IMG/VR virus record: IMGVR_UViG_3300032132_000048
Location: 1 to 20,765 of that record
Source: a virus
Strand: one strand, 5' to 3'
DNA length: 20,765 nt
Part shown: piece after piece, positions 97 through 15,040 of the stretch
How the letters are laid out: every line of letters starts with the position of its first letter
Position numbering within the stretch: the first letter of the stretch is position 1
Made by a program: the position numbers and the translations under genes
Notes under the pieces: generated by a model
Told to the model about the DNA's origin: nothing
Databases searched by the model: none
What the model saw: only the letters and a program-made list of their open reading frames with translations

Positions 97-786
97 GAAA
101 CTCCTGATGAAGATATGGCAACAGCCCAAGCAGCGGCTGCGGCGATGGAAAGCAGCCCCATTACCTCTGGAGTAGACATCGGTAAGACGGAGAAAGGATT
201 TGACCCTGGAGAGACAGGATTTGAGCCTGACGTTGAGACCGGGCAATCCATCTCTGACTGGGCAGCAGCGTTTGACGCTAAGATGGCTGAAGGAGGGTTC
301 GATTATGGTTCGTGGGCATCTGGCGGCACCACCTCCGGCCCCAACCTGGAGATAGTAGGGGAAGAAGGCCCTGAACTGGTAGACCTCCCACCTGGGACGG
401 TAGTATTCCCATTAACCAGCCTACAACCAGAACACGCAGACAAGCTAGGAAAACTCAAAACCAAAGGTGCCAGTGTCCGTAAGATGGCTGAAGGCGGGAT
501 AGTCGAGATGGGCAATCCTTCCTCTTTCCCACTAGGAATCCAGAGACTGATATCCGGTGCCGGTGTAGACCAACCCCGCCCGTTACTCCCATTCTCCGGT
601 ATGACTACCCCGTCAGCCCAGTCCCAGAGGAACCTCCTCCCGTCAGAACAGGAATTCCTCGTAGGACTGCTGGAACAGGCCGGTATCCCCAAGATGGACA
701 TAGAGCGTGAACTCTCCAGTATAGGTCCCGGAAGGGGAGGTGGAAGGGCCAAGTTCCTACCAACCACCACAAGGACTAGCTTCTAA
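1..786 (+). CDS. Tape-measure-like virion protein, C-terminal fragment
   Basis: The reading frame is open at the left edge, so only the last 261 residues are seen; the ATG at 115 is internal to a longer gene. Visible residues 1-24 are at least twelve Thr-Pro pairs, followed by a Glu/Asp-Pro stretch, which reads as an extended linker. Residues 120-137 read GEEGPELVDLPPGTVVFP, preceded by a Gly-rich ASGGTTSGP segment. This GExGPELV-P-G-V-P signature is characteristic of the C-terminal end of phage tape-measure and related tail proteins. KMAEGG occurs twice, again like the AxGG repeats of such proteins. The last 60 residues are Pro/Leu-rich. The stop overlaps the start of the giant gene by one base (TAATG), implying coupled translation. 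If the virion is podovirus-like, this may instead be another tail or internal protein carrying the same signature. The virion role is fairly sure, the tape-measure name less so. Confidence 0.6.
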   Translation, partial: TPTPTPTPTPTPTPTPTPTPTPTPEPDPTPEPETPDEDMATAQAAAAAMESSPITSGVDIGKTEKGFDPGETGFEPDVETGQSISDWAAAFDAKMAEGGFDYGSWASGGTTSGPNLEIVGEEGPELVDLPPGTVVFPLTSLQPEHADKLGKLKTKGASVRKMAEGGIVEMGNPSSFPLGIQRLISGAGVDQPRPLLPFSGMTTPSAQSQRNLLPSEQEFLVGLLEQAGIPKMDIERELSSIGPGRGGGRAKFLPTTTRTSF

Positions 787-3700
787 TGGCAGTGTTTGAT
801 TTCCCACTGGACACCCCATCCCGGCGTCAGCTTTCCAGGATAGTCTTGAGGGCTGGTGATACGGACCCATTCGTCCGGGACCTGGAGACCGACCCTGACC
901 CCTGGGGGCATGACCCCGTACCCATGCCTGTACCCACTCCACCACCCCAGTCTCCCAACTTTCCGGGGTTCTTGTCCTGGGATGATCCGGGGTTCATAGG
1001 GCCACCACCACCCCCTATACCGACTCCGACTGCTACTCCTACTGGTGGGTTTTACCCGGACCAGGTTACCCCCGCTGCACCAAGTTTTTTGCACTCTATC
1101 CAACCAGACATACCTGGGGGGACTACCAGAACTGACGCCCCGGAGGACTGGTCCTACAGCAGACAAGCCTATATAGGGGATCAACCAGACCCCCAGCAGC
1201 CGTTCCAGGACTTCTTCAAGAAAGACCTGGACGTGCAGCAGATAGAGTCAGACCTACCTCTATACAGGAAGAAACTGGACCGTGCCCGTCTGGACAGGGA
1301 CCAGTTGCAAGGTTTCTCCCAATTCCCATTGAATCAGGGTGGATACCTGGATGAGACCCTGGCTTACCCGCTGGATATCCGTCAGCGTAGAGTCGAGGAC
1401 TATGAGACCAGGGAATCACGAAAGATACAGAATTATCGTGACCTAGAAGACAGGCTGAATTTCCAACAGGGTGTGATACCTGAAGGTGATCTGGCGAAAC
1501 AGCAGATGGAGCTTTATGGCTCCCCGTTCACATATCTGTCGGGTCTTTATATGGATGCCCTCAGTACCACCTTAAACACCCTTAAACATCCCAAATCAAT
1601 CTTTGACGTGAGATCAGATATAGCTGAGACGGGGGAACTCCAGGATACCGGCACATACAGTGGGGAAGGGCCATCCTTTCTGGGAAGACAAGAGGTTCCT
1701 TTCTCAAACTTCATAGACGTAGTACAGCGTCAACAGGCCCGTCCAGAGAAGGTTAGGCTCATCAGTGAAACTCTGATAGACCCCACCGTCGCAGGACTGG
1801 CACTTGGAGGAACAAGACTACTCGGGAAAGCAGGGCTGGGCATAACCAAAGAGATAGGCAGTATGCTCCCGAAGGTCCCTATAGCCCACGCCTCTAGTGG
1901 TGCCTGGAGAAGGCCGTTCAACTACAACCCCAGACAACTAGCTGACCTGGACAAGATAGAGAAATCTATGGCTATCAACGAGAAGAAGCTAGATGATCTG
2001 GTCCGGGTAGTAGGAGAAGACCCCACCAGTGCTCCTGTCCAACAGGTCCTGAACAGGATGAAGCAACTGGGCCAGCAGAGAGCCGACATAATCAAAGAGG
2101 CTGAACCCAGTATCGGCAAACTACTAACAGGAGCAACCTACAAGAATCCAGGGATAGTACATGATGTGGGAATGTTCAACCGCATGTCCACCCTGGAGGA
2201 GTTCGGTCTGGAACCCGTAGCCGCCTCCAACCAGTACCTAGCAACACTCCCAGGTATGGCTGATCAGGTAGCGGATGTGGTCACCTCAAACAGCAACCTT
2301 ATAAAGACCATCATAGCCAAGATAGGGATAAACCCCTCTATAGCCCGAAACACTCCCATAGGCAGGATAGCAACCGCCTTCCACCGCCAGGAGATAGCAG
2401 CAGAGGAGTCCATAAGTACAGCCCTATCCGCATTGATAGACTCCAGGATGCAGAGGTGGACCGGGAGGATGGGGCGTGGTATAGACCCACGGAAACAAGA
2501 GAACCAACTACTACCCATAGACCAGCAAGGACTCTGGGGAGATACCGGGGTCCCGTGGCAAGAGGTGTTTGGGAAACCAGGCAAATATGGCTATGGCGAC
2601 CCCCAGAACCTCCCGGATGGAATCATGCGAGACCGTGCCATGCTCATAGAGGACTACAACTATGTGATAAACGTGGAAGCACGGCGGATCATGGATGATG
2701 TGGGTCTGGATTTCAATTACCACAGCGCAAACAGGTATGAAACAGGATGGAAGGTCGGAGAGAAGACCCCCAACCCCTACTACGTCCCAAGACAGGTAAC
2801 AACTATCCGTGAGATAGAACTCACCCGCCACTCCAACCCCGACCTGCAACGCCACTACGAAGATATAACCGAAGGCTTTGAGTCTGGCATACGCTACGAC
2901 ACCGACCCACGCCGGACCGCTGAGTTATATCTCCGTTGGGTATACCGGAAGTCCATGAGGAAGCAACTGGATGATGCCCTAGAACCCTACTCCATGACAC
3001 CTGAACAGCTAATCTCAGCAGAGATACGGGATGGCTACAAGACAGCCATGAAGTCCCGTCGTGCTGCCGAGATCATGCGCCGCCGTATCCGGGGTGCCAT
3101 AGTAAGAGCCGAAGCCCACACCCGTACCCGCAAGGTAAGACGTGGGGACCTGGTAAAGAGCCTTGAAGAAACCGAAGGAGACATGGAGAGGATAGACAAA
3201 CTCCTTGCCCAACTGGATGTGCTGCCTTATGAGAGAGAAACCATCCCCAAGATGCACACAAGAACAGAGAAGGGAGTGAAGATATACACAGGCAAGGTGA
3301 AGAGAGGCAGAACGGGAGGTGTTCTCCGTGAAGGCATCACCCCAGAGCCTGCACGTCGGCAACAGGTCGGGGTACTAGCCCAGGCCGGATTAGCCAAGAC
3401 CAACTACAAACGACTACTAGCCCGGAAGGGTGGCAAAAAGCGTCTGGTAGCGACTTCCGAAAGGCGTCTACAGGAGATGCAGGACCGTCTGGAGATCCTC
3501 CGATACCACCTCTCTGCCGCCGACGAACTCCTTCAGATGAGGAGGACCGAGCACATCTCGGCCAGGAACACCTACCGGAGCAAACTCAGGGAGTTCAACA
3601 AATCCAAGGAAACCACCGCCCTGTGGGGTCCGAACCAGACGGAAACCAGGATAGAGAAACACGACTGGTTCAATAGATTCATGAAGCCAGAGGATGTCAA

Positions 3701-5888
3701 GGTCCTGAATGAATCTTTCCGGAAGCAGGACATAGAAACCTTCTCCTACAAAGCCTACCACGCCCTTGAGATATTAGGTAACGCCGTCCGGTATCTCTCC
3801 GCTGTGGGTGACTTCGCCATGCCATTCATCCAGGGGCTACCAGTGCTGGCGACAGACCCGGAAGCCTGGGGTAGGATGACCGCCCGTCACTATCAGGCTT
3901 TCTTTGATCCCAGCATCCAGGCACGTCTGGTAAAGACCCACATAGAAGACTACAAGTGGTTAGCCCAGCACGGGATACCCATAGGAGACCCGGAGTTCTT
4001 CGCTGCCCTCAATAAGGGAGGCGGGATATCCCTGGATAAGGCATACAAGAAACTAGGTAGAGAAGACGTTCAACGGTTCACCCATACTGTTCACCGCCAG
4101 ACCTTCGGGAGGTTCCAGGCATCCTATAATACCGGACTGGGATATTCCAGGGTCCTCCTCTACCGTGGCCTGAAGAGTGGCTGGAAGGGGACGGACTCTG
4201 AACTGGCCCAGTATATCCGCAACCTGACTGGTGGGTTGGACTCCCGTGCTCTGGGTGTGGGACCTTCACAGAGGGCCGTAGAGGGCATGTTCCTGGCCTT
4301 CTCCCCCAGACTACTCAGGTCCACCGTGGCACTGGTGGGAGACGCCCTGCTCCGTCCCGATACAGTAGCGGGTAGAGCATCCTTCAGGTCCCTAGCGCAA
4401 CTGTCGATGGGTGCAGTCGGCACCTTCGTCATCACTGGCAAGGCCCTCGGAAAGACCAACGAAGAGATACAAGCAGGTCTTAACCCACTGAACGGCAAAC
4501 GCTTCCTGGCCCACCAGATAAACGGTGACTGGATCGGCCTAGGGGGCCAGGTCCGTGCCATAGCCCAGTTACTAACAGGTATAGGAGCGGGGATATACGG
4601 CGGGACCGCCAGACTGACTGGACTGCCTTTCCCCGGCACCGAGGAAGACTGGGCAGACCCCTCCAAGCTGATAACCAGAGACCCCTACGACAACCCCCTG
4701 ATATCCATGTACCTGTCCCGTGGAGCGGTAGGGTTGAACCTGGTGGGTGGGGTGATGGAGGCTACTCCGGGTATGCCGGATATCCTCCCTTATGAAGAGA
4801 TAGACGGCCCCCTAGAACTGGTTAGCCATGTGGGAAAATCCGGCACCCCCTTCGCTGTACAGTCCTGGATGGAAAGACAGCAACCTCTCTCCATAGCACT
4901 GGGGGGAATAGGCATGAGAACCTCCCCCGAAACCAAATACGAGAAACAGGACCGTGCTCGCAAGACAGTCATGGGGGAACTTGGGGTAGCTACCACTGGT
5001 AACTCTGGTGAATATAAAGATATATCCGGGATAAGCGATAAAGATGCGGTGAACGCCGACCCCCGTGTGATAGCGACAGGCGAAGAGGTAGCCAAACTCA
5101 ACCGGGAGAGGAAGTCCGTGGTCCAAGCCTTCAAAGACGATATGAACAAGGAGATGGCTATCCACGACGACCTGATAGCCCAGTCAGCAGACCAACTCGG
5201 TGCAGGCAAGGCTTTCCGGGAAAATCTCCCAGACCTGATGAGGGCCAAAGCCCAAGCCAGGATAAACGTGGAGAACAAGCAGACACACGCAGATGCCATG
5301 TCGGTATTTGATGACCTAGAATCCAATGAGGCCCTTGAGTTCAAGATACTCAGGGAATACATGGAAACCATGCAAGGGGCCAGCCTGGAGAACCCCGCCA
5401 CCGGAGCATACGACTTCGACAGACGCCAGGGTATAGAAGATAAATTCCGGAAAGAATACGGGGATAAGGTGATGGACAGCATCCAGGAAGCTATCCGTGC
5501 CGATGAACACCCACTGGTAAAGGAACTCCGGGAAGATAGAGAAACCCTCCGTACCTACTGGGAGGCCAACAAGAGGGTCAAGAAATTCTTCCCTGATGGC
5601 TACGGAAAGAAGTGGGATGAGTTCCTGGCTCTGACGGATGACCGCCGTAAACGGAACATGAGAAGGGATAGCCATGTCATCAGAAGGATGGAAAAGGCTG
5701 TCGATGCCATCAGAGAGGGGATGGTACAGGACTCAAAGGAGAATGACCCATTTGAGGACCAGATAGATGTCCTCCTCCTGAAGTGGGGGTATGCTTCAGC
5801 ACCCAAGACCAGATCAGGTATCCGTGTACCCCTTCCCCAAGTACCAGGAGACCCCGCTATACTCCCGCAACCCGCTATGTTCAGATGA
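786..5888 (+). CDS. Giant (1700 aa) internal virion / DNA-ejection-type protein
   Basis: This single uninterrupted frame takes up a quarter of the window. Residues about 36-90 are proline-rich with PPPPP and PTPTATPT tracts. Residues about 770-960 are very basic and helical, with coiled-coil character near 890-945. Residues about 990-1330 form an Ala/Gly-rich helical block with amphipathic or hydrophobic stretches (FLAFSPRLLRSTVALV near 1169, MGAVGTFVITGKAL near 1209, GLPFPGTEEDW near 1280). The last 300 residues are charged helices. The FSPR-LLRS block followed by Ala-rich helices and an LPFPG segment resembles the helical C-terminal regions of large phage polyvalent and internal-virion proteins, which are packaged in the capsid and ejected with the DNA. 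No polymerase, protease or lysozyme active site was recognised. The start overlaps the upstream stop by one base and the end overlaps the Com-like gene by four. Confidence 0.6.
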   Translation: MAVFDFPLDTPSRRQLSRIVLRAGDTDPFVRDLETDPDPWGHDPVPMPVPTPPPQSPNFPGFLSWDDPGFIGPPPPPIPTPTATPTGGFYPDQVTPAAPSFLHSIQPDIPGGTTRTDAPEDWSYSRQAYIGDQPDPQQPFQDFFKKDLDVQQIESDLPLYRKKLDRARLDRDQLQGFSQFPLNQGGYLDETLAYPLDIRQRRVEDYETRESRKIQNYRDLEDRLNFQQGVIPEGDLAKQQMELYGSPFTYLSGLYMDALSTTLNTLKHPKSIFDVRSDIAETGELQDTGTYSGEGPSFLGRQEVPFSNFIDVVQRQQARPEKVRLISETLIDPTVAGLALGGTRLLGKAGLGITKEIGSMLPKVPIAHASSGAWRRPFNYNPRQLADLDKIEKSMAINEKKLDDLVRVVGEDPTSAPVQQVLNRMKQLGQQRADIIKEAEPSIGKLLTGATYKNPGIVHDVGMFNRMSTLEEFGLEPVAASNQYLATLPGMADQVADVVTSNSNLIKTIIAKIGINPSIARNTPIGRIATAFHRQEIAAEESISTALSALIDSRMQRWTGRMGRGIDPRKQENQLLPIDQQGLWGDTGVPWQEVFGKPGKYGYGDPQNLPDGIMRDRAMLIEDYNYVINVEARRIMDDVGLDFNYHSANRYETGWKVGEKTPNPYYVPRQVTTIREIELTRHSNPDLQRHYEDITEGFESGIRYDTDPRRTAELYLRWVYRKSMRKQLDDALEPYSMTPEQLISAEIRDGYKTAMKSRRAAEIMRRRIRGAIVRAEAHTRTRKVRRGDLVKSLEETEGDMERIDKLLAQLDVLPYERETIPKMHTRTEKGVKIYTGKVKRGRTGGVLREGITPEPARRQQVGVLAQAGLAKTNYKRLLARKGGKKRLVATSERRLQEMQDRLEILRYHLSAADELLQMRRTEHISARNTYRSKLREFNKSKETTALWGPNQTETRIEKHDWFNRFMKPEDVKVLNESFRKQDIETFSYKAYHALEILGNAVRYLSAVGDFAMPFIQGLPVLATDPEAWGRMTARHYQAFFDPSIQARLVKTHIEDYKWLAQHGIPIGDPEFFAALNKGGGISLDKAYKKLGREDVQRFTHTVHRQTFGRFQASYNTGLGYSRVLLYRGLKSGWKGTDSELAQYIRNLTGGLDSRALGVGPSQRAVEGMFLAFSPRLLRSTVALVGDALLRPDTVAGRASFRSLAQLSMGAVGTFVITGKALGKTNEEIQAGLNPLNGKRFLAHQINGDWIGLGGQVRAIAQLLTGIGAGIYGGTARLTGLPFPGTEEDWADPSKLITRDPYDNPLISMYLSRGAVGLNLVGGVMEATPGMPDILPYEEIDGPLELVSHVGKSGTPFAVQSWMERQQPLSIALGGIGMRTSPETKYEKQDRARKTVMGELGVATTGNSGEYKDISGISDKDAVNADPRVIATGEEVAKLNRERKSVVQAFKDDMNKEMAIHDDLIAQSADQLGAGKAFRENLPDLMRAKAQARINVENKQTHADAMSVFDDLESNEALEFKILREYMETMQGASLENPATGAYDFDRRQGIEDKFRKEYGDKVMDSIQEAIRADEHPLVKELREDRETLRTYWEANKRVKKFFPDGYGKKWDEFLALTDDRRKRNMRRDSHVIRRMEKAVDAIREGMVQDSKENDPFEDQIDVLLLKWGYASAPKTRSGIRVPLPQVPGDPAILPQPAMFR

Positions 5889-10360: not shown

Positions 10361-10873
10361 ATGGCTGGTTCAAGATTCCACGGCGACGGGTTCAATACGC
10401 TGGTTGCCGATGCTGCTAACCCTGACTCCGCTATAAGTTTGACCGTTAATGCCAGTACCATCCACCGCATCTGGCTCTACGAGATCAACATGGGCAATAT
10501 CGGCACCCCTGCCGACCTTGTGTCCGTATACTACATCGGACAGTGCACGGCTCCAGGAGGTAGTGCAGGGGCTGTAACAGCCACCGCCATAGAAGATGGC
10601 ACCACCAACGCCAAGGCTTCTGTATCGGTGCTACACGGCAATCTCACCACGGAGCCTACCTACGTTGCCACCATAGCTGGTACGGGTGTGACAACCCCGG
10701 CAAACGGCGACCTGCTCCGTGTTGCTCTCAATCACCGTGCTGCCTACAGGTGGGTGGCCCCGCCAGGTGGCGAGTTCGTAGCCCCCGCTATCACTACTGA
10801 CGGCTTCGGTGGAGTAGCGGCACACGCCTCGGCTACCACTGACTACATGATAGGGTTCCATTGGGTTGAGTAG
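10361..10873 (+). CDS. Beta-rich virion structural protein
   Basis: A 170-residue protein with a strong AGGAGG site before the ATG at 10361, suggesting high expression. It is almost all beta and loop, with strands such as ISLTVNASTIHRIWLYEI and LVSVYYIGQ. Near its end it has the pattern LRVALNHRAAYRWVAPPGGE, an N-x-R-A-x-x-R-W-V-A-P-x-G motif that I have met in conserved hypothetical structural proteins of uncultured phages. No membrane segment or catalytic motif is seen. Position after several decoration-like genes supports a head-surface role; strong expression would fit a high-copy component. Confidence 0.6.
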   Translation: MAGSRFHGDGFNTLVADAANPDSAISLTVNASTIHRIWLYEINMGNIGTPADLVSVYYIGQCTAPGGSAGAVTATAIEDGTTNAKASVSVLHGNLTTEPTYVATIAGTGVTTPANGDLLRVALNHRAAYRWVAPPGGEFVAPAITTDGFGGVAAHASATTDYMIGFHWVE

Positions 10874-11147
10874 CATCCACTCAGGCTCCAGGGAAGGGTA
10901 TGCTCTGATCACCGACCCTTATGCCCCGTTGTCGGAGTCCAGCACCTTCAACTGCTGCCACTGTCAATACCTGGTCCACGTCCACTTCAGGTCTGGAGTA
11001 GAACGGGGCTATTGCTTCTTGTGCAACGCCGCCACCTGCGGTAAGCCCCGCTGCAACAAAGGCTGCTCTCCATTCATGAAGCGGATCGAGGAGCAGGAGA
11101 ACCGGCACCGGCTCCACAAGGCCCTGGAGCGTGGCTACGACAGATAG
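10866..11147 (+). CDS. Cysteine-rich zinc-binding phage protein
   Basis: A 93-residue protein with eight cysteines between residues 30 and 67: CCHC, then RGYCFLCNAATCG, then PRCNKGCSPF, followed by a helix with Glu-rich KRIEEQEN. The order C-x2-C, G-x-C-x2-C, C-G-x-x-x-C, C-x-PF and E-x-x-E is typical of a small conserved phage protein of unknown function found beside structural genes. Two zinc sites are likely. The frame begins with TTG at 10866, overlapping the previous stop by eight bases, without a clear SD; the first in-frame ATG lies far inside. A CTG at 10905 preceded by GGGAAGG is an alternative start, since the residues before the cysteines are not distinctive. Confidence 0.6.
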   Translation: MSSIHSGSREGYALITDPYAPLSESSTFNCCHCQYLVHVHFRSGVERGYCFLCNAATCGKPRCNKGCSPFMKRIEEQENRHRLHKALERGYDR

Positions 11148-13332: not shown

Positions 13333-13617
13333 GTGGCTGAGATAGATGACCTGCGGGCGGAGTTAGAACGATTAAAAGCAACGGAGGACAAGTCCGACAA
13401 AGTTCAGATGACGAGCGGCGATATCGTCCGGCTCGTAATCGCTGCGCCCGTGGTTTTTTGCTGGTTATTCCTGGGGTCCAGAATCATAATATCGGCCACA
13501 ACTTCACAGACGGTGTTGAGCAATATAGAACCCTTACTCCTAGCCTTATCCATCCTTACCATCCCGGTCACGGCGATACTCGCCAGCTTATTCAAAGTTG
13601 ATGGGAATGGGAAATGA
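13333..13617 (+). CDS. Two-span membrane protein, holin candidate
   Basis: A 94-residue protein begun at GTG 13333, one base after the previous stop. Residues 1-25 form a charged helix (IDDLRAELERLKATEDK), residues 31-53 and 66-87 are hydrophobic spans, and a short KVDGNGK tail ends it. Size, two spans and charged ends fit small phage holins, which form the lysis pore in the inner membrane, but no family signature is present and no endolysin is adjacent. It overlaps the next gene by four bases (ATGA), so the two are probably made together and may interact. A superinfection-exclusion or anchoring role is equally compatible. Confidence 0.5.
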   Translation: MAEIDDLRAELERLKATEDKSDKVQMTSGDIVRLVIAAPVVFCWLFLGSRIIISATTSQTVLSNIEPLLLALSILTIPVTAILASLFKVDGNGK

Positions 13618-14495
13618 CGCTATTTGAAAAGATATGCCGCCTAGTCGGAGACAGGAAGATACCGGTTCCCAAGATGCCGGTGTTCAGATGGTTTACGGTT
13701 GGATTTGCCAACAAGCATGTAACAACGATTGTGGTGATGGCAATCTTGGTCAGTGCCGCAGCCGTAAGCGTGGGGATGTATTTCGCGATCCGAGATGTGG
13801 TGGGTAGTACATACAACTGGCCTGAGCCAGCACAGTACGCTGTTACCGCTGCGGGCTTAGAGACGATGGGTAAAAAGAACCCAGATTACGCTGACGGCAC
13901 AGAGTCACAAACCCTATCCATCCGCTTGGCTGATGGGGCCAGGATAAGCACCCTCCGTATAAAAGACACAGACCTGGGGCGCACTGGTATCGCACGGGCA
14001 CTGGACATCAGCCCTCTCACCAGCGCAGTCACCGGGGCTACCGCCTATCTATGGGTGGGCAATCTAACTGTTACTAACTCGTCCTTCCCTACGTTTAAGA
14101 TGGAGACTAGCGACGTTGCCAATCTAGTGACTGGCGTCCTCTGCGATGGGCACACTATGGCAGCAACTATCACAAATACGGTGCCAGATATGGTGTTGGA
14201 GAGTGAGAGGCTATCTTCGGTGTACGAAGTTAATGACTCCGTTGTGGACCGTATCCAGATACACATCACCGGGACATCGGGGGCGTTTGTTGAAAATCTG
14301 ATACTCGATAATGTGGATGCCTGGAACGGAGAGGCTTATTTTTCGAGGCTAAAAGTGGGAAACCTGACCATGAATAATTCAAACAAGGTGGGTGATGGCT
14401 CAGGAGTGGACTCTGCCAGTTGTAATTGGGAGCCTAATGTCGCCGCCAGGAATATCACGAACACGATACAAGACAGACCGATAAAGGTGCAGTGA
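13614..14495 (+). CDS. Single-pass membrane protein with large beta-rich ectodomain
   Basis: A 293-residue protein. Residues 1-35 are basic (KICRLVGDRKIPVPKM, then RWF), residues 36-58 are one hydrophobic span (VTTIVVMAILVSAAAVSVGM), and the remaining 235 residues are soluble and beta-rich. Basic residues before the span and no cleavage motif suggest an inside-N, outside-C signal anchor, placing the large domain outside the cytoplasmic membrane. Repeated short strands (AYLWVGNLTVTNSS and YFSRLKVGNLTMNNSN share VGNLTxxNS) hint at a repeat or beta-solenoid fold. It is unlike the virion genes around it and I recognise no family. Possible roles include host-envelope modification, exclusion of other phages or a lysis accessory; none is proven. 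Confidence 0.5.
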   Translation: MTLFEKICRLVGDRKIPVPKMPVFRWFTVGFANKHVTTIVVMAILVSAAAVSVGMYFAIRDVVGSTYNWPEPAQYAVTAAGLETMGKKNPDYADGTESQTLSIRLADGARISTLRIKDTDLGRTGIARALDISPLTSAVTGATAYLWVGNLTVTNSSFPTFKMETSDVANLVTGVLCDGHTMAATITNTVPDMVLESERLSSVYEVNDSVVDRIQIHITGTSGAFVENLILDNVDAWNGEAYFSRLKVGNLTMNNSNKVGDGSGVDSASCNWEPNVAARNITNTIQDRPIKVQ

Positions 14496-14629
14496 TGAAG
14501 ACAGTACTAGGATTGGGAGTTATGACAGCGTTGGTTGGAGTTGTGGGGGCAGGCATGGCTGTCGGCTGGGCTTATGAGGGGCCACGCAGGTTCATGCGTA
14601 GACTCAAACTCCGTAAGGCACTGCGTTAA
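14495..14629 (+). CDS. 44-residue membrane mini-protein
   Basis: Starts at ATG 14495 in a TGATG overlap with the previous stop and ends with TAATG at 14627-14631, overlapping the following start. Residues 3-26 are one Gly/Ala/Val-rich span (LGLGVMTALVGVVGAGMAVG) with small residues every three to four positions that could pack helices together. The tail is very basic (RRFMRRLKLRKALR). The chain of start/stop overlaps on both sides makes it credible despite its size. It could be a small holin, pinholin-like peptide or membrane-active regulator; the sequence allows no firmer call. Confidence 0.5.
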   Translation: MKTVLGLGVMTALVGVVGAGMAVGWAYEGPRRFMRRLKLRKALR

Positions 14630-14760
14630 TGTGCTGGCTGGGCTGGCATATGTGGAGGCAGCTACCGGATGATTGGGGCGTTCGCCAATGCCGTGTATGC
14701 AAGGCTAGGGAGCAAGCTATGTACGACACGGTAACCGGCATGTACTGGGTGCGACTCTAG
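14629..14760 (+). CDS. 43-residue zinc-knuckle mini-protein
   Basis: Starts at ATG 14629 overlapping the previous stop and ends at TAG 14758-14760, overlapping the next GTG start by one base. It opens MCWLGWHMWRQLP and later has CRVCKAREQ, giving Cys2, His7, Cys21 and Cys24. The C-x4-H-x-W start and later C-x2-C resemble the short phage proteins of the DUF1660 type, where one zinc atom probably holds the chain. Five tryptophans in 43 residues is striking. The function of such proteins is unknown. Confidence 0.5.
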   Translation: MCWLGWHMWRQLPDDWGVRQCRVCKAREQAMYDTVTGMYWVRL

Positions 14761-14942
14761 TGCCAGAGATGGGCAAGGTAAGGCCACAGATACTCGTTGC
14801 CATCCTGTGTGCCACGATATTCTCCTGCTTCGTTAGCTACCTGGCTTACAAGATGGGTGGGATAGAGATAATGACGGCTATCATCGGCGGCATTTTCGGA
14901 TTCCTGGGTGGGGTTTCCCTCAAAGTCCTCGAAAACGAGTAA
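14760..14942 (+). CDS. Small two-span membrane protein, holin candidate
   Basis: Sixty residues starting at GTG 14760; ATG 14769 is an alternative start three codons on. Residues 10-30 (ILVAILCATIFSCFVSYLAY) and 35-56 (EIMTAIIGGIFGFLGGVSLK) are hydrophobic, linked by a short KMGG turn, with a basic N-terminus and acidic C-terminus. A helical hairpin of this size is the usual shape of class II phage holins. A second candidate lies 1.1 kb upstream, so the pair may be a holin and an antiholin, or neither. It is followed by the structured 98-base gap. Confidence 0.5.
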   Translation: MPEMGKVRPQILVAILCATIFSCFVSYLAYKMGGIEIMTAIIGGIFGFLGGVSLKVLENE

Positions 14943-14952
14943 ACTATCATAG

Positions 14953-15031
14953 CTGCCTACGGGCAGACATTTAACCTGTCACGGGGTGAAATGTCCCTGG
15001 GTGCCCCTGCTCCATTGGTGGGCATCCAGGG
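14953..15031 (+). promoter_or_regulatory. Three abutting RNA hairpins covering a ribosome-binding site
   Basis: This fills most of the only plus-strand gap with internal structure. Hairpin 1: CTGCC/GGCAG around TACG (14953-14966), a C(UNCG)G-type stable tetraloop. Hairpin 2: ACATTT (14967-14972) with AAATGT (14989-14994), plus an inner ACC/GGT. Hairpin 3: CCCTGGGTGCCC (14995-15006) with GGGCATCCAGGG (15020-15031), twelve pairs including one G-U. There are no unpaired bases between them. The last arm contains AGGG, the only SD-like site before ATG 15041. There is no T tract, so it is not a terminator. A translational control element is likely; an RNA-processing site is possible. Confidence 0.55.
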
Positions 15032-15040
15032 AAAACAAAT

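Follow-up and report, generated by a model that had tools for sequence, protein, structure and literature searches.

A five-gene cassette with a holin-like gene and a tightly linked membrane-protein pair is shared among unrelated types of uncultured phages

The window analysed here is a stretch of viral DNA of 20,765 nt, in which five small or membrane-protein genes (A to E) lie at 13333-14942, followed by a 98-nt gap that holds three RNA hairpins:

A, 13333-13617, plus strand: 94 aa, GTG start, two-span hairpin with a charged N-terminal tail
B, 13614-14495, plus strand: 293 aa, type II signal-anchor protein
C, 14492-14629, plus strand: 45 aa from GTG or 44 aa from the next ATG, single span, basic tail
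D, 14629-14760, plus strand: 43 aa, small zinc-site protein (C-x4-H...W-x2-R-x-C-x2-C)
E, 14760-14942, plus strand: 60 aa, two-span holin-like protein
Three tandem hairpins, 14952-15032, plus strand: z of -3.6, -4.5 and -4.9 in the window, L002 and L003, respectively

A first-pass annotation had placed five tiny or membrane-bound proteins here, chained by overlaps of 1-4 bases; the coordinates match, and the measured overlaps are 4 nt for A/B (ATGA), 4 nt for B/C (GTGA) and 1 nt each for C/D and D/E. Hydropathy predicts spans at residues 35-53 and 68-86 of A, 39-57 of B, 6-24 of C, and 11-29 and 39-57 of E, with none in D; these counts (2, 1, 1, 0, 2) agree with the two-span proteins of 94 and 60 aa, the signal-anchor protein of 293 aa and the membrane peptide of 44 aa described earlier. 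The proposed zinc-knuckle peptide of 43 aa was also upheld, with H7, C21 and C24 of D invariant and C2 nearly invariant in 23 relatives; D itself passed no Pfam or PHROG threshold. C has, besides its span, an EGPRRF motif and the basic tail, and longer C relatives carry after the span a C-x4-H...C-x2-C zinc-type domain, similar to the D motif. Tandem duplicates of the zinc-site gene D were seen in L017, L018 and L041.

Comparison of gene content at this locus in relatives found the cassette conserved on dozens of contigs. Since the homologues are open there, and comparison with three relatives gives A, B, C and E a dN/dS of 0.02-0.45 (D was left out, its dS being saturated), the five frames are more than chance, and they are confirmed as real and conserved. 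The earlier claim of an island at about 47-52% GC beside a coat gene at about 60% did not survive: the values are 52.0% for the island, 55.8% for the coat gene and 54.3% for the window, a smaller contrast. A GC shift was rejected as a mark of the island, as g359 and g280 just upstream are equally low (52-53%) and C and D are not low.

The hairpins, one of which has a UACG tetraloop, accompany the cassette in L002 and L003, where a long core is identical and changes in the third stem keep the pairing; in L002 the downstream genes are unrelated to those of the window, and L005 has no hairpins. They match no Rfam family, and a standard intrinsic terminator was rejected because there is no U-run.

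Scans of IMG/VR, from samples which we take to be largely deep-ocean, and hence marine, from their IMG sample numbers, returned 23 contigs with B as query and 38 with A. Profile searches over the collected contigs detected 49 with A, 59 with B and 79 with E. B was adjacent to A on 48 of the 49 A contigs, the remaining one ending inside the pair, and the A stop and B start overlapped as ATGA in all 36 close B copies inspected, so that A and B are a fixed pair, a single unit. E was present on 55 of the 59 B contigs; of the four without it, three are cut off at contig ends, which leaves L104 as the exception. A-B is one unit and E another, and the two are almost always found together.

The window, L003 (a 41.5 kb contig) and L005 are podo-like and share tail and DNA polymerase genes at ~46-62% identity, and the coat gene is shared by the window and L003 within the same range. 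Sipho-like contigs (L008, L012, L020, L040, L047, L053 and others) have only the cassette in common with the window, and L002 represents a third phage type with its own set of virion genes. The relatives thus comprise at least three types of phage with unrelated virion genes, and the presence of the cassette in all of them indicates that it moves as a unit. A recent exchange is implied by the B ectodomain, which is 95% identical between the window and L003, whereas the coat (54%), g441 (52%), g744 (48%) and E (44%) are far more divergent.

Several other features of these genomes were recorded. At 10361-11147 of the window, g170 and the Cys-rich g93 have 88-96% DNA identity to L003 while the neighbouring coat and tail genes have 52-59%, suggesting a second recently exchanged block. 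A 1700-aa protein without a PHROG match (window 786-5888) is likely to be an internal component of a podo-like virion. L003 (17295-20183, minus strand) and L005 (11282-13915, minus strand) encode a DNA polymerase A fused to a uracil-DNA glycosylase domain, and the right end of the window cuts inside the homologous polymerase. Sipho-like L034 and L061-L064 encode Mom-family DNA modification proteins and N6/N4 DNA methylases.

Synteny was compared across 80 sipho-like loci gathered via the major tail protein. The site of the cassette does not vary, being flanked by head gene K and genes J-T, and A-B occurs there in varied combinations with F, G, C, D, E and H. The gene set is kept but permuted to E-D-F-A-B-C in L007, L101, L102 and L105; many of L107-L139 have E, D and F at the site with A-B missing; and in L119 E lies in the head-tail gap with A-B ~8 kb downstream. 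L140-L154, which retain the same major tail protein, have an empty or almost empty site. Distant podo-like contigs (L080, L083 and L086) have A-B-E elsewhere, followed by a conserved protein of 61-63 aa. The cassette is thus a widely shared, swappable block in uncultured viruses that appear to infect bacteria.

B comprises a basic cytoplasmic tail (residues 1-38), the span and an ectodomain (about 67-293). A full-length model was poor (pLDDT 53) and was set aside for one of the ectodomain alone, built with 29 relatives (pLDDT 83, pTM 0.84), which is all beta; the domain confidently models as what its strand pattern suggests is a beta-solenoid. Among solved structures, Foldseek gave nothing below E 0.03 and the best VIA-align hit was a polysaccharide lyase at Z 3.6, so there was no convincing match by sequence or fold. 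In BFVD only five viral proteins matched the model (A0A1B1IS34, A0A1B1INJ4, A0A1B1IQH1, A0A516L4T4 and A0A516MPL1), with query-normalised TM-scores of 0.71-0.92 and 17-61% identity. Ectodomain classes diverge to 30-45% identity while the anchor is better conserved, as between L015 and L047, whose anchors are 95% and ectodomains 42% identical; the two parts have separate histories, with the ectodomain varying by allele while the anchor stays the same. A-B is a protein pair without any known family. A 453-aa B-like protein with extra membrane spans occurs in L073 (14725-16083) without a separate A gene, and is possibly an A-B fusion.

E fits the usual description of a holin as a small protein with 1-4 spans. 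Its best Pfam match is the holin family PF05106 (Phage_holin_3_1; E=2e-4, 22.2 bits), 1.6 bits short of the curated cut-off of 23.8, and for this reason E is called holin-like here and was not filed under that family. In PHROGs it matches holin families only: the E of the window matches phrog_785 (E=1.1e-3), and among 19 E members six match phrog_785 and two phrog_6384, both holin PHROGs (E<=0.01). The other two-span proteins of the cassettes, A and H, have no holin match and no match of any kind in Pfam or PHROGs.

No lysozyme, amidase or peptidase lies next to the cassette, as noted in the first-pass annotation, and its view that this is not a textbook holin/endolysin cassette stands: the genes form a discrete module, and no muralytic enzyme was found in or beside it, nor by Pfam in related contigs. 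An all-Pfam scan (E<=1e-3) covered the ORFs of G002 (41.5 kb), G004 (30 kb) and G001 (28 kb), representatives of 20 further loci, and then distant and empty-site relatives. It recovered terminase, portal, capsid, tape measure, polymerase, methylases, helicases and others, and among about 200 ORFs no lysozyme, amidase, transglycosylase or wall endopeptidase. Six named hydrolase families each gave 0/21 over 21 whole contigs, but a control lineage with a Pseudomonas-phage-type coat protein was equally negative for PF00959 and PF01510 (0/22 contigs); absence of a single family therefore says little, and the six-family result was downgraded. In a test of complementarity, the empty-site sipho-like relatives, expected to carry an endolysin, had no hydrolase either. 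The absence of hydrolases is weak evidence, and what weight it has comes from the all-Pfam scans.

The DnaC/DnaI-type and DnaA-like ATPases and family A polymerase indicate a bacterial host. Searches with A and B each against 84,980 prokaryote genomes (GTDB) gave no relative, hence no host or prophage; B had no relatives among 50,697 phage records, and no tRNAs were found as a host clue. SAR202 bacteria do not encode peptidoglycan synthesis, are monoderm with an S-layer-like layer, and have isolates of 51.8% GC (PMC10444878, PMC6306507, PMC10284905). Since no wall enzymes were found, the GC is near 54% and the SAR202 envelope lacks peptidoglycan, this lineage of Chloroflexota is a candidate; by this indirect reasoning the host is likely a bacterium that largely or wholly lacks peptidoglycan, with SAR202 as the best candidate. 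The phrases tried in a literature search returned no paper on SAR202 phages.

The explanation that we favour, though tentatively and at somewhat less than even chances, is that of a mobile cassette of the late virion operon that needs no peptidoglycan hydrolase to breach the host envelope and does so from the cytoplasmic membrane, E being the holin and A-B its outward partner. At the close of infection E, as a class II type holin, would permeabilise the membrane. A and B would act jointly, A as a two-span membrane partner and B as an outward-facing tethered beta-solenoid that could disrupt or grip an outer layer, such as an S-layer, in the role of endolysin and spanins, while C and D may be accessory or timing factors at the inner face. 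The narrower version, a dedicated endolysin-free lysis in phages of peptidoglycan-less marine SAR202 with the holin and the A-B solenoid breaking or detaching the S-layer, is doubtful as it stands. A new lysis, exclusion or envelope-modification module had been suggested from the first reading of the sequence, and this was partly borne out: the discrete module stood, the PHROG matches of E, all to holin families, and its best Pfam match, also a holin family, favour lysis as the function, and the argument from lower GC failed. The outcome that the same reading had set against itself, a standard lysis cassette elsewhere together with frames that are not conserved, was found in neither part, the window being a fragment. 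Against membrane-only lysis stand the Pfam score of E just under the cut-off, the separability of A-B from E in L119, the genome scans that gave no host link and the limited power of the missing endolysin as evidence. The location also counts against it, as lysis genes between head and tail genes are in an unusual position.

The main rival, though rather unlikely, is that two modules adjoin, an ordinary holin (E) and a superinfection-exclusion or receptor-masking pair (A-B) whose solenoid blocks competing phages. The several kb between A-B and E in L119 suggest that A-B may have a separate function, and an ectodomain that varies so widely under a better conserved anchor is what would be expected of a specificity domain. 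On the other hand, A-B is embedded in a late virion operon, E accompanies nearly every B, and searches of Pfam and PHROGs tied neither A nor B to any described exclusion protein.

Slightly less probable still is a standard holin/endolysin system, whose endolysin would be too divergent for Pfam or lie in a missing part of the genome, the cassette supplying holin, antiholin and accessories. The fragmentary state of the window, the many small ORFs without a match and the negative control lineage agree with such a hidden enzyme, but no hydrolase was found in a 41.5 kb contig with terminase, portal-size, coat, tail and DNA polymerase genes, nor with all Pfam families in two further phage types. It is improbable that A-B, with C and D, serves morphogenesis or entry, as tail-assembly membrane factors or a virion-borne aid for DNA crossing the host membrane: the cassette does sit within the virion genes, ahead of those for the tail, in both podo-like and sipho-like phages, but phages with unrelated tails use it and L140-L154 dispense with it under the same major tail protein.

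If membrane-only lysis is correct, the cassette would make exit from peptidoglycan-less bacteria directly testable, would mark phages that infect uncultured Chloroflexota, and would add in A-B a protein pair outside known families. We know of no description of how tailed phages leave bacteria without peptidoglycan. Even without a role in lysis, a pair that keeps the same overlap in unrelated phages deserves a function.

Among known systems, Phage_holin_3_1 and PHROGs 785 and 6384 are the closest to E, which aligns through its two spans to profile positions 41-85 of 99 and shares the small hairpin and charged C-terminus; it differs in covering less than half of the Phage_holin_3_1 profile and in having no endolysin beside it. 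E and A resemble class II (S21-type) holins in size (60-94 aa), in their two spans and in the predicted location of both ends inside, but neither has a match over a curated cut-off, and A is tied to B by the stop/start overlap. B resembles spanins as an outward membrane-anchored protein beside a holin-like gene, as does gene F of the sipho-like relatives (absent from the window), with a span and a long charged region; the B ectodomain, in contrast, is modelled as all beta, a predicted solenoid and not a coiled coil, and inspection of A-E for a spanin-type outer-membrane lipoprotein partner revealed no lipobox. D presumably resembles the small DUF1660-like zinc-site proteins of phages, which like D have C...H...C-x2-C within 40-60 aa. 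The five BFVD proteins, all uncharacterised, have the same predicted ectodomain fold as B.
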